Below, in pieces: positions 33,484 to 39,693 of a DNA stretch of 40,928 nt. Source of the stretch: Acidobacteriota bacterium. Lineage in GTDB: Bacteria > Acidobacteriota > Terriglobia > Acidiferrales > 2-02-FULL-67-57. The notes beneath the pieces were generated by a model. That model was given only the letters and a program-made list of their open reading frames with translations. It had not been told where the DNA came from and did no database searches. Positions within the stretch are counted from its first letter, which is position 1; the number at the start of each line of letters is the position of its first letter. The translations under genes and the position numbers were made by a program. The stretch is taken from contig JACZYA010000011.1 in the NCBI GenBank assembly GCA_022571295.1, forward strand, positions 1 to 40,928. Direction: 5' to 3'.

Positions 33484-33595
33484 GGACCAGACCCCGGGTC
33501 CTCTGCGGCACACGGAAATGACCCGCTACCGTTGCTTCCTTCCGGACCTGGCGGAGTTCGCGGGGTTTCGTTGCACAGAGCCCGAAGTCTGATCC
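33484..33595 (-). ncRNA. ffs: Signal recognition particle RNA (bacterial small type, 4.5S)
   Basis: On the - strand the conserved tip CAGGTCCGGAAGGAAGCA is present. The flanks pair into one long hairpin: GGATCAGACTTCGGGCTCTG at the 5' end against the complementary 3' end CAGAGGACCCGGGGTCTGGT (CC follows), with a two-base bulge and some G-U pairs. The pairing defines ends at about 33595 and 33484, 112 nt, near the E. coli length. It binds Ffh and directs membrane proteins to the translocon. It lies 31 bases before dnaX, an order seen in many bacteria. Confidence 0.93.
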
Positions 33596-33686: not shown

Positions 33687-33698
33687 CCCCGTACGGGG
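33687..33698. repeat. Perfect 12-bp palindrome CCCCGTACGGGG followed by ATAAACTCC
   Basis: This self-complementary sequence lies in the gap between the SRP RNA promoter and the beta-propeller gene. The bases just after it, GGGATAAACTCC, recur exactly at 36818-36829 inside the degenerate tRNA-Gly copies, suggesting one dispersed repeat family. Confidence 0.5.
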
Positions 33699-33729
33699 AT
33701 AAACTCCGCACCTCTTCCAAACTGACATT

Positions 33730-34925: not shown

Positions 34926-35012
34926 GGAGCGGTGCAGGAGCGGTTGAACTGGCGGCACTGGAAATGCCGTGTACCCGAAAGGGTACCGTGGGTTCGAATC
35001 CCACCCGCTCCG
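34926..35012 (+). tRNA. tRNA-Ser(GGA)
   Basis: 87 bases. Acceptor GGAGCGG pairs with CCGCTCC (35005-35011). The anticodon stem CGGCA/TGCCG encloses CTGGAAA with anticodon GGA at 34960-34962. A long variable arm (TACCC-GAAA-GGGTA) is typical of serine tRNA, and the T arm is GTGGG-TTCGAAT-CCCAC. The 3' CCA is not encoded: CCG follows the discriminator G. It reads UCC/UCU codons. A weak TTGCAC-18-TATGGT pair upstream (34885-34914) may be the promoter. Confidence 0.95.
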
Positions 35013-35015
35013 CCG

Positions 35016-35703: not shown

Positions 35704-36645
35704 ATGGCTGAGACGCAGGGCATGAGCGCGGCCATCCTGGTTATTGACGACGACGCACTCCTCGTCCAGTTGTTGGAGAAAGCCTTCGCCCGGTTCGGCT
35801 ATCAAGTGACGGCCGTGGATGACCCGTTGCGCGGGCTGCAACTGCTGGACCAGCGGTCGTTCGACTTAGTCATCACCGACATCAAAATGCCCCGCCTGAG
35901 CGGCATCAAGGTGCTGGAGATGGTCAAGGCACTGGACGAATCCATCGAGGTCATCATCCTGACCGGCGCCGAGGAAGGACTGCTGGAAAATGCCATCGCT
36001 GCCTTGCGCTTGGGGGCCAGCGACTTTCTGTTGAAACCCCTGCACAACCTGGATGAGCTGATGGCGGCGGTGGAGCGCTCGTTGGAAAAGCGAAAGCTGG
36101 CGGTCACGGTGCGCCAGTTGGCCAAGAGCGTGGACCACCTGCGCAATACCGACCGGCTGACGAATGTCTGCACGCGGCGTTATTTCTTTGAGCGCGCGAG
36201 CGTCGAGTTGCTGCGTTCCCGGCGCTATCGGAAGCCCATTTCTTGCCTGTTGGTGGATATTGACCACCTGGGGCAGATTAACAACACCTACGGCCCACCC
36301 TGCGGCGACCAGGTCCTGGCGCACGTGGCCCGCCTGCTGGTGGAGAGCACCCGCACGACCGACATTGTGGGCCGCTACGGCGGCGAGGAGTTTGTGGTTG
36401 CCCTGGCCGAGACCAAGACCGAGCAGGCGCAGGTGGCGGCGGAGAAGGTACGCAAGGCCGTGGAAACTTCCGACTTCAGTTTCGGCGGGCGCTCGATTCC
36501 GTTGACGGTCAGCATTGGGGTGGCGGGGGCGGAGGAGCTTGCGGCCATCAGCGACCTGATCGCGCAGGCCGCACAGGCGCTGGAAGAAGCAAAGCGGGCC
36601 GGGCGGAACTGCATTCGGATCGGCGAAGCCAAGGTGAGCGGTTGA
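35704..36645 (+). CDS. Response regulator with GGDEF domain (diguanylate cyclase)
   Basis: 313 residues. The receiver domain (about 10-125) has acidic residues IDDD, phospho-acceptor Asp59 in VITDIKMP, Thr87 and Lys111. The GGDEF domain (about 148-310) starts with DRLT, has the metal-binding VDIDH (Asp185/Asp187), the active-site GGEEF (226-230) and a product-inhibition site RTTD (217-220), five residues before it. It should make cyclic di-GMP when phosphorylated, with feedback control. In the usual GHxxGD segment the His is replaced (YGPPCGDQ). A second start at codon 7 is possible. No histidine kinase gene is adjacent, so it is an orphan. The tRNA-Gly promoter overlaps its end. Confidence 0.92.
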   Translation: MAETQGMSAAILVIDDDALLVQLLEKAFARFGYQVTAVDDPLRGLQLLDQRSFDLVITDIKMPRLSGIKVLEMVKALDESIEVIILTGAEEGLLENAIAALRLGASDFLLKPLHNLDELMAAVERSLEKRKLAVTVRQLAKSVDHLRNTDRLTNVCTRRYFFERASVELLRSRRYRKPISCLLVDIDHLGQINNTYGPPCGDQVLAHVARLLVESTRTTDIVGRYGGEEFVVALAETKTEQAQVAAEKVRKAVETSDFSFGGRSIPLTVSIGVAGAEELAAISDLIAQAAQALEEAKRAGRNCIRIGEAKVSG

Positions 36646-36684: not shown

Positions 36685-36760
36685 GCGAGCGTAGCTCAGC
36701 TGGTAGAGCACAACCTTGCCAAGGTTGGGGTCGTGGGTTCAAATCCCATCGCTCGCTCCA
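36685..36760 (+). tRNA. tRNA-Gly(GCC)
   Basis: 76 bases including an encoded CCA. Acceptor GCGAGCG pairs with CGCTCGC. The D arm is GCTC-AGCTGGTAGA-GC. The anticodon stem CAACC/GGTTG holds TTGCCAA, with anticodon GCC, and the T arm is GTGGG-TTCAAAT-CCCAT. Degenerate copies of its 3' half follow downstream. Unlike tRNA-Ser in this window, the CCA is in the DNA. Confidence 0.97.
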
Positions 36761-37086
36761 TTACCTTCTGACAGGAACCGCTAAGGTTGGGGTGGTGGGT
36801 TTCCCTCGGCTTCGCTCGGGATAAACTCCTCCCATCGCTCGCTCCATTTCTTTTTTCCTCTCTTCACCTGTTCGCACGCGATACTGCGGTTGGGTTTCCT
36901 TCGGCTTTGCTCCCCTCGTTCACACTCGGGACAAGCCGGGCAGGCGGGACAAGCTCAGGACAGGCAAACCCTATCGCTCCATTTTCTTTCCTAGCCACTT
37001 CTTCACGGTTGGGTTCCTCTAGCACCGCTGCACAAAAGGTGCGCTGGGTCGCGGCACAGTAGGGTACGGCGGCGCGTGACGCTAGG
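36761..37086. repeat. Degenerate copies of the tRNA-Gly 3' half with inserted sequence
   Basis: This gene-free stretch of 326 bases contains decayed copies of the tRNA end. At 36783-36802 the anticodon/T-arm segment AAGGTTGGGGTGGTGGGTTT reappears. After about 27 inserted bases (with GGGATAAACTCC) the 3' end TCCCATCGCTCGCTCCATT returns exactly at 36830-36848. A third copy starts with GGTTGGGTTT at 36888 and resumes with AAACCCTATCGCTCCATTTT at 36966, the insert now about 68 bases. A fourth start, GGTTGGGTTCC, is at 37007. Inserts sit where the T loop was. T-rich DNA follows each copy. No gene is seen here. Confidence 0.7.
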
Positions 37087-39693
37087 TCACGGTCGGGATG
37101 GCAAGTCTGCTTCCTTCAGGCCGGGCAGGTAGAGAGAGTTGAACAGGAGCTTGAAGGTGCGGAGGGGCTGGGCGCGGTGCTGGGCGCGGAAGCCGATGAG
37201 GACGACGCGGCCCTGGCCGACTTTGAGTTCCACCACGGCAGCGCGCTTTTCAAGCAGCTCGGCGCCTTTGAGGTAGCCGCTGATGAGAATCTGGTCGCCG
37301 TGTTCGGGGTAAGTGGCGACGACGCGGCGGTCGAAGCGCGCGTCGGGCACGCGCGTCTGGAAGGCGGGCGAGCTGGCGAAGTAGGCGGCTTCGATCTTGC
37401 GCATGCCGTAAGCGATGGGATGGGTGTTGTCCACCTGGAGGCGAAGCATGGAGCCGGGACAACTGAAGGCATCTCTGTCGACGTCGGCGAGCACGTTGGT
37501 GACGGGGAGCTTGAAGAGTTCGATGAAATAGTCGGCGGAGGAGTCGAGGGCGACGACGGTGCCGCCTTGCTCGACCCACTCTTTGATGTGCGTTGCGCCC
37601 TCCTGGCCAAGGCCGCCTGCGTATTCAGCCGGCAGGGGGGCGAAGAAGCGACCCGCGGGCCCGCTGGGCATGCCGTCTTTGATGACGGAGTTGCTGACGT
37701 CGGGGAAGAGCAGAACGTCAATCTGCTCTTTGAAGGAGCCATCTTTGATTTTCTCGTTGCTCAGGTTGGTATAGGGGAATTCGTAGCGCTCCAGCAGCCA
37801 GCGCGTCCAGCCCTCGTCCATGCTGGCGATCCAGGGCTTGTAGAGGCCGACGCGGGTGGAAGTGACCCGATGGGCTTTACCGGAGGGGGCGGCGCCCAGA
37901 GCGCGAATGGGGACGTGAACCTCGGAGGCGAGGGCGGTGAGCTCGCGGTGATCCATCTGGTCGGCGGGCAGGTAGATGTCGCCGATCTTTCCTCCCATCG
38001 GGGCTTGCTGGAGCCAGTAGAGCGTTTTGCCCGCTTTCAGGAGCCGGTTGATGGCGGTGAAGGCGGAGTCGGCGCTGTGGGGAATCAAGTAGCCACCGCG
38101 GCCGGCGGGAACGTTTCCGCCCGGCCAGTCCGGCGCGTCAATGCGGCGGAGGCGGTCTCTGATGGGAGTATCCACCTCGATGGTTTTGACCCCCATGGAA
38201 ATGGGCAGCGACCAGGAAGCGACGTCGTAGGGCGGGATGATGGGCCCGCCGGTGTAGGGGATGACCTCGGGATAGCGCTGGCGGCGCAGCATTTCCAGAA
38301 TGAAGGGGCGATAAGGCTGCGCGGTGAGGATGACGTAGGTGCCGGGGCGGTAGCGGGTGTTTCCGACCGCGAGGCCGGCCTCGGCCCGGTGGACGCGGAC
38401 GCCGTGGCGCAGGAGGAGGTCAACCAGCCGCGCAGCAGCCACGGGGTCGTGCTGGTCGGGCGGGATCAGGAAGGCGTAAGGCGCTTCGGCGGCGCCGCGC
38501 TCGATGCCCTGCCGGTTGAGCCGGTAGAAATTGGTCAGCAGCTCTTCGCGGTAGCGGGATGAACTCTCCAGCAAACTGCGGGTGGCGATCAGCTCGTAGT
38601 CAATGATGTCGCGTAGCCGCCACCAGCCGCCCGGCCAGGGGGAAGGGAAGTTGGAGCGGCGGACGTATTCGGGAAAGCCCTTCCGGCCGCCTTGCAGCTC
38701 CCCGGGCTCGATGTAGATGGGCGTGGCGATGCGGGCGCTGGCGACTTCGGTGAGCAGGCCGACGACGTTTTTCCACCAAGCGGTGTTGCGGGTGCCGCCG
38801 GGCCAGTAGCTGTCGTAGATCATGTCGTGGCCGACGCCGGTCTTGCCGGCTTCCTCCAGGCGCATTGACATGTTGGTGCCGAGCAGGTCGGCCAGGCGGA
38901 AGATCATGGAATCCACTTTGAGGTTGAGCGGATCGGTCTGCGGCGGGACGAACATGCGCGGGCCGGTGCTGCCCATCTGGTGCTCGTCAAGGAACACTTG
39001 CGGGAACCACTGGTGGTAGAGGACGTCGTTCACCACTTGGGTTTCCTGCTGGGTGAGCATGTAGAAGTCGCGGTTGTTGTCGTGGCCGACGTAGTGGTGG
39101 TAGAGCCAGGGCATGCGGCCGCCCTCGAATTCCGTGTCGAGGTATTGGTTGTACCAGTCAATCACCAGTACCTGGCCGTCGGGGTTGATGGAGGGGATGA
39201 TGACCATGATGACGTCGTCGAGCCAGGCGAGCATTTTAGGGTCGGTGGTGGTGGCGACGTCGTAGGCGAACTCCATCGCCATCTGGGTGGAGCCGACTTC
39301 GGTAGAGTGAATGGTGCAGGTGACCAGGACGATAGTTTTGCCGGCGGCGATGAGTCGCTGGGCTTCTTCTTCGGTCAGGTCGTCCGGGTTGGCCAGGCGG
39401 CGGGCGATGTCGCGGTAATGGTCCAAGCGCTGCTGGTTGGCCTCGGAGGTCAGGATGACCAGCAGCATGTCATTGCCGAGCGTGGACTTGCCGGCCAACT
39501 GCACGGTGACGCGCTCGGAGGTGGCACCGAGAGCGCGGAAGTATTCCACCACTTTGGGGTAGGGAGCCAGGTAGCGGTCTTCACCTACCTTGTGGCCGAG
39601 GAAACTTTCGGGCGAGAGAATTTCCTGCGCTGGGACGGAGAGAGCCAAGAGCAGAGCCAACGCAACGCCGGGAAGAATGAGTTGAGTCCTCAC
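37087..39693 (-). CDS. Secreted M14 family zinc carboxypeptidase
   Basis: 868 residues from a GTG at 39693 with GGGAGG seven bases upstream. Residues 1-22 are a signal peptide. The M14 zinc motif is HSTE (His129, Glu132), preceded by IVLVTCT and followed by INPDGQ; the HHYVGHDNNRDFY segment and DEHQ probably supply further active-site residues including the third zinc ligand. The long C-terminal part (from about residue 400) is typical of large bacterial M14 proteins and may hold a glutamine amidotransferase-like fold. It would trim peptides or peptidoglycan in the periplasm or outside. A good promoter lies upstream. It is transcribed alone. Confidence 0.88.
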   Translation of the reverse strand: MRTQLILPGVALALLLALSVPAQEILSPESFLGHKVGEDRYLAPYPKVVEYFRALGATSERVTVQLAGKSTLGNDMLLVILTSEANQQRLDHYRDIARRLANPDDLTEEEAQRLIAAGKTIVLVTCTIHSTEVGSTQMAMEFAYDVATTTDPKMLAWLDDVIMVIIPSINPDGQVLVIDWYNQYLDTEFEGGRMPWLYHHYVGHDNNRDFYMLTQQETQVVNDVLYHQWFPQVFLDEHQMGSTGPRMFVPPQTDPLNLKVDSMIFRLADLLGTNMSMRLEEAGKTGVGHDMIYDSYWPGGTRNTAWWKNVVGLLTEVASARIATPIYIEPGELQGGRKGFPEYVRRSNFPSPWPGGWWRLRDIIDYELIATRSLLESSSRYREELLTNFYRLNRQGIERGAAEAPYAFLIPPDQHDPVAAARLVDLLLRHGVRVHRAEAGLAVGNTRYRPGTYVILTAQPYRPFILEMLRRQRYPEVIPYTGGPIIPPYDVASWSLPISMGVKTIEVDTPIRDRLRRIDAPDWPGGNVPAGRGGYLIPHSADSAFTAINRLLKAGKTLYWLQQAPMGGKIGDIYLPADQMDHRELTALASEVHVPIRALGAAPSGKAHRVTSTRVGLYKPWIASMDEGWTRWLLERYEFPYTNLSNEKIKDGSFKEQIDVLLFPDVSNSVIKDGMPSGPAGRFFAPLPAEYAGGLGQEGATHIKEWVEQGGTVVALDSSADYFIELFKLPVTNVLADVDRDAFSCPGSMLRLQVDNTHPIAYGMRKIEAAYFASSPAFQTRVPDARFDRRVVATYPEHGDQILISGYLKGAELLEKRAAVVELKVGQGRVVLIGFRAQHRAQPLRTFKLLFNSLYLPGLKEADLPSRP

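Follow-up and report, generated by a model that had tools for sequence, protein, structure and literature searches.

The window (the whole 40,928-nucleotide stretch of DNA analysed here) is contig C176 of a 3.24 Mb acidobacterial genome (designated G000). It contains an intact tRNA-Gly gene followed by displaced copies of the same gene, with the features at the locus being as follows:

35704..36645, + strand: response-regulator GGDEF gene directly 5′ of tRNA-Gly, outside the element and used as a synteny anchor (Pfam GGDEF, 2.2e-39; flank alignment to the related genomes G003 and G004)
36685..36760, + strand: intact tRNA-Gly(GCC), the host gene of the array (ARAGORN; Rfam RF00005, 70.7 bits)
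36776..36801, + strand: copy 2, 5′ part up to T55, comprising anticodon arm, variable region and 5′ strand of the T stem, AACCGCTAAGGTTGGGGTGGTGGGTT (full-tRNA alignment; direct repeat D3, 91%)
36802..36825, + strand: copy 2 insert, 24 nt, of the hairpin family, between T55 and C56, TCCCTCGGCTTCGCTCGGGATAAA (sequence; like inserts at tRNA-Leu(CAA) and others)
36826..36848, + strand: copy 2, 3′ part, comprising the remainder of the T loop, 3′ strand of the T stem, 3′ strand of the acceptor stem, CCA and TT (direct repeat D2; alignment)
36886..36896, + strand: copy 3, 5′ part, decayed, GCGGTTGGGTT (direct repeat D4, which spans its insert boundary, 91% to copy 2)
36897..36964, + strand: copy 3 insert, 68 nt, a compound of the hairpin family of the copy 2 insert (82-83% matches at contigs C13 and C282 of the same genome; sequence)
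36965..36983, + strand: copy 3, 3′ part, with a 4-nt deletion, CAAACCCTATCGCTCCATT (alignment p = 0.02; TCGCTCCATT counts)

An earlier note on this DNA had placed an intact tRNA-Gly at the head of the array and had seen its 3′ end recurring exactly. Both observations stand: the exact repeat TCCCATCGCTCGCTCCATT is real, and a 22-nt repeat (GCCAAGGTTGGGGTCGTGGGTT, 91%) was also confirmed in the array. In copy 2 (36776-36848), tRNA-Gly is clearly recognisable from the anticodon stem (AACC..GCTAAGGTT), where the copy begins, to the CCA, with alignment of the full tRNA against 36762-36860 scoring 60.4 (shuffle p = 0.0005, the floor of the test); in its T loop, CTCC replaces CAAA after the insert. 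Copy 3 (36886-36983) is decayed and is supported more weakly than copy 2 (alignment p = 0.02), by an insert boundary at which 22 nt match copy 2 at 91% and by TCGCTCCATT, which has three exact occurrences in the window, all of them in the array, where 0.10 would be expected. The T-loop inserts that the note described hold for copies 2 and 3. A fourth copy is unsupported: the candidate at ~37006-37017 extends over ~12 nt only (p = 0.03 with a different alignment) and was rejected. The first insert is 24 nt in length rather than about 27, whilst the second has the reported 68 nt. The inserts do become longer along the array, but this growth consists of two data points only, both of them members of one dispersed hairpin family.

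No match to the GIY-YIG domain (PF01541) was found in C176 or in its array, and a 91 aa ORF overlapping the copies (36787-37062) was taken as a chance frame rather than a real gene. On the minus strand, 37087-39693 encodes a protein of 868 aa that has an M14 zinc carboxypeptidase domain (6.2e-16) and ends where the array does. Between 33500 and 37300, tRNA and SRP RNA are the only described RNA families above the Rfam cut-off, the bacterial small SRP RNA lying at 33500-33587 on the minus strand (65.5 bits), ~110 nt from the word GGGATAAACTCC described below.

The array insert belongs to a dispersed family of hairpin repeats, with at least 54 matches to CCYTCGRCTNCGCTCRGG across the G000 genome, most of them away from tRNA genes, versus none for a reversed control. 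This membership explains why the array shares the word GGGATAAACTCC with a second place in the window: it is found at 36818-36829 and at 33696-33707 (0.02 expected), two bases from where the note had put it (33694-33705).

Searching G000 with the array, as the note had suggested, located a like insert at the identical point of the T loop in a 3′ copy of tRNA-Leu(CAA) and in a second, partial tRNA-Leu locus, and a survey of the tRNA genes of this genome identified similar copies at Leu-TAG, Ser-GCT, Glu-CTC, Glu-TTC and Pro-CGG. T-loop-interrupted copies are present at seven tRNAs in total, with no control hits. When the last 16 nt of each tRNA were used as a probe, nine downstream same-strand copies were found at 8 of 39 tRNAs, whereas the upstream and the two antisense controls gave none. 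One of the nine, at tRNA-Phe, is a different kind of element: here (L046, on contig C11) the tRNA 3′-half copy lies 1.26 kb downstream and bounds another small island in which, by eye, a small ORF resembles an antitoxin and another ORF a GNAT acetyltransferase, and no integrase is obvious. Antisense phage-type integrase-like genes were also seen by eye downstream of tRNA-Asp, Thr-CGT, Gly-CCC, Cys and Leu-TAA (L029, L032, L039, L054 and L090, respectively), suggesting that classical islands use the tRNAs of G000 as well.

Across four genomes of the acidobacterial family, 30 downstream same-strand copies were found at 28 of 117 tRNAs versus two upstream or antisense control hits, with the upstream control covering about half the length that was searched downstream. 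In the cleanest copies (Asn and Ser-GCT of G003, Leu-CAA of G000) an insert of 23-24 nt splits TT|C and the rest of the T arm is kept. The T55/C56 point is common to unrelated tRNAs (Leu, Asn, Ser, Cys, Arg, Glu) and is therefore a preferred site. The note's suggestion of expansion by insertion at one point is thus right as regards the point, but there is no single growing insert.

At Leu-TAG and Ser-GCT of G000, the intact tRNA is separated from the interrupted copy by a small GIY-YIG gene. The window's own tRNA-Gly has syntenic counterparts, identified by alignment of the upstream GGDEF flank over >500 nt: in G003 a single GIY-YIG unit follows the tRNA, and in G004 there are two in tandem. 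The proteins encoded by the units belong to the GIY-YIG superfamily (54-73 bits against the PF01541 curated cut-off of 22.6) and have the invariant Tyr, Tyr, Arg and Glu positions. A complete unit reads intact tRNA, small GIY-YIG gene, then a second copy of that tRNA, either its 3′ part or almost the entire gene, in which a hairpin splits or replaces the T loop or the anticodon arm, so that a regenerated tRNA gene and a displaced tRNA fragment are both present. The T loop is split in type A units. In type B units (Ala, Ile, Val, Pro, Asn) the anticodon arm is replaced by the hairpin TCCCG..CGGGA and the T arm is intact; in several of these, by inspection, the GIY-YIG frame runs into the beginning of the interrupted tRNA copy, which supplies its end. 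One Ile copy (L188) has hairpins of both types. There are also mirror units, with the interrupted copy upstream of the GIY-YIG gene and the intact tRNA downstream, the hairpin being in the D-loop region at Ser-TGA of G000 (contig C140) and replacing the T arm of a nearly whole tRNA at Ala-CGC of G003. Inverted hairpin sequences flank the GIY-YIG gene in the Gly and Ser units (CCCTGAGCGAG..TCGAAGGG before, CCCTTCGAC..CTCAGGG after). Read base by base, the units contain GIY-YIG or short spacers only, with no integrase gene between the tRNA pieces.

Not every unit is complete. At tRNA-Gly of G003 there is no clear second tRNA copy past the GIY-YIG gene (p = 0.06), and short units lacking the GIY-YIG gene are found at Leu-CAG (G002), Cys (G003, G005) and Lys (G004). 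At tRNA-Ser(GGA) of G003, the GIY-YIG gene of a second unit is reduced to its first few codons, showing a route by which such GIY-less units can form. The tRNA-Ser(GGA) of the window itself (34926-35014) ends in GCC followed by GTCC and so has no encoded CCA; its orthologues in G003 and G001 have the CCA and have GIY-YIG units attached. A further unit, at Arg-ACG, is carried on a 6,096-base contig of G004.

Linkage to tRNA genes extends well beyond this family. In 21 genomes, with GIY-YIG genes located by Pfam coordinates, 32 of 54 small GIY-YIG genes are near a tRNA, with which they always share the strand, 31 of them at no more than 160 nt from it; by our own estimate, from 42 tRNAs in 3.24 Mb, ~0.3% would be expected by chance. 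None of the seven uvrC genes that served as control in the same survey is beside a tRNA, and a separate GIY-YIG lineage with the motif LYTGVTNNL is never tRNA-linked. Scanning 84,980 species genomes from all bacteria for one nuclease clade, with a four-protein alignment (a 12-protein alignment was too diverse), identified 44 loci in about a dozen phyla, including Acidobacteriota, Verrucomicrobiota, Bacteroidota, Fidelibacterota (Marinimicrobia), Patescibacteria lineages, Armatimonadota, Lentisphaerota and Myxococcota. Thirty of the 44 are within 250 nt of a tRNA, all 30 on the same strand. A second, interrupted copy of the intact tRNA lies across the GIY-YIG gene at 44 of 61 loci (shuffle p < 0.01), at least six loci being counted in both sets. 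Most of the genomes compared are MAGs. Phage carriage was rejected, just two relatives being found among 2.9 million viral contigs, as was a known defence system, PADLOC giving no match.

Within one genus, tRNAs that carry a unit in one genome have empty orthologues in another. Val-GAC is the cleanest case, with Pro-CGG, Asn and Ser-CGA behaving in the same way but with boundaries blurred by divergence. Such occupied and empty sites in relatives, together with the frequency of the shared word, are at odds with the chance similarity that the earlier note had set against its own reading. Pairwise dN/dS is 0.06-0.22 where dS is unsaturated, and 0.13 between the tandem units of G004; taken with the patchy occupancy, this indicates that purifying selection acts on the protein even though units appear and disappear. 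There is a tendency for related nucleases to have the same tRNA isotype: a tree of 84 of them, which has few columns and many open forks, shows 22 changes of isotype, versus a mean of 35.4 and a minimum of 29 after shuffling. As regards homing, tRNA linkage and partial isotype fidelity are what was observed, the tRNA gene being a putative cutting target.

What are these units? We think it probable that they represent an integrase-less, tRNA-targeted GIY-YIG element of the homing type and that the copies in the window are what is left of such elements, piled up at a single tRNA gene after loss of the GIY-YIG gene. With no GIY-YIG gene in the window, the array is linked to the element through its anatomy and through what relatives carry. 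The note's stack of integration scars survives in the tandem displaced tRNA ends, the occupied and empty sites of relatives and the decay that rises with distance, but not as a classical integrase island, since related occupied units hold just the small nuclease gene and inverted hairpin repeats. In tyrosine-integrase islands (Islander) a regenerated tRNA and a displaced fragment mark the ends, and crossover occurs at anticodon-loop and T-loop subsites of tRNA genes (PMC4383910). The present units resemble them in all these respects but have no integrase, measure hundreds of bases rather than tens of kilobases and have a hairpin inside the displaced copy. Scars of tyrosine-integrase islands or satellites since deleted, with the hairpins being secondary, would account for the displaced ends (their classical mark) and for the use of identical subsites (PMC4383910), but simple att scars would have no loop hairpins and the occupied units, at ~100-400 nt, contain GIY-YIG alone or nothing; this explanation is already disfavoured and we consider it very improbable.

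The hairpins themselves raise another possibility. REP/BIME repeats are dispersed palindromes, found singly and as inverted pairs, that RAYT transposases are presumed to mobilise. The dispersed palindromic repeats of G000 (54 copies versus 0 for the reversed pattern) are similar, but the units have a GIY-YIG nuclease instead of a Y1 transposase and use tRNA arms as sites. If the tRNA 3′ half had been tandemly duplicated by replication error (slippage) and REP-like hairpins, moved by some enzyme, had then entered functionless T loops, the GIY-YIG gene would be incidental, as the nuclease-free array of the window and the many family members away from tRNAs might suggest. Random insertion does not, however, predict a single point (T55|C56) across many tRNAs, nor does it predict same-strand GIY-YIG linkage or an interrupted tRNA copy across the gene at most loci, and we judge it unlikely. 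An RNA-level system, in which the nuclease acts on the tRNA or its precursor and the hairpin-bearing copy is a decoy or regulator from the same transcript, seems to us very improbable too: same strand and short spacing would permit cotranscription, and tRNA-like arms are kept in the interrupted copy, but copies decay freely and often occur without GIY-YIG, patchy presence within a genus better suits a mobile element, and PADLOC found nothing matching.

The tRNA-targeted element that we favour has other relatives among known systems. Like free-standing GIY-YIG homing endonuclease genes, it is a selfish-looking gene beside a presumed target, with lineage-wise target fidelity; it differs in having no intron or intein, in having a regenerated tRNA gene as putative target and in its hairpin-marked second copy. 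The Ssn family comprises GIY-YIG site-specific single-strand nucleases of Neisseria and others with repeated targets. These too are small single-domain proteins with repeated hairpin-like sequences near the gene, and may be the closest biochemical relatives of the unit nucleases, although to our knowledge no tRNA linkage has been reported for them. The solved sequences closest to the clade found at tRNA-Gly in relatives are the UPF0213 proteins BH0048 (1zg2) and EF2693 (1ywl) (E 1.3e-22); both are hypothetical proteins for which we know of no tRNA context. Open-licence papers on GIY-YIG proteins and tRNA genes yielded no account of the linkage (weak evidence of novelty), and neither a 2006 paper on the GIY-YIG superfamily nor a 2023 paper on tRNA fragments mentions it.

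As for mechanism, we infer that the putative nuclease cuts the tRNA gene, perhaps on a single strand only, at the T loop or anticodon loop, and that host recombination between tRNA sequences would then copy the unit into the site. The incoming unit would supply its own tRNA end, allowing the tRNA gene to survive. Repeated entry into the regenerated tRNA would displace older copies downstream, where they would lose the nuclease gene and decay, a sequence of events that matches the order of copies in the window. The hairpin may mark the site of the nuclease or prevent the displaced copy from being cut again. Intact tRNA and copy are usually identical, so that insertion and later tandem duplication with conversion are indistinguishable.

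More broadly, we lean somewhat towards the existence of a bacterial class of integrase-less elements, spanning about a dozen phyla, in which one small GIY-YIG nuclease parasitises tRNA genes. Such elements would carry or capture a tRNA end that keeps the gene alive and mark the displaced copy with a hairpin in the T loop, anticodon arm or D loop; lineages would be specialised by isotype, and GIY-less derivatives, such as the window array, would be mobilised in trans. The element looks to be widespread, tiny, apparently undescribed and of a kind that leaves the tRNA working. If this is true, many bacteria have in their tRNA genes a minute selfish element that works without an integrase, which would account for many unexplained tRNA fragments and for small GIY-YIG genes annotated without a role. 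It would also offer a testable system in which a nuclease and host recombination alone build a mobile element, as well as candidate site-specific nucleases against conserved tRNA arms.
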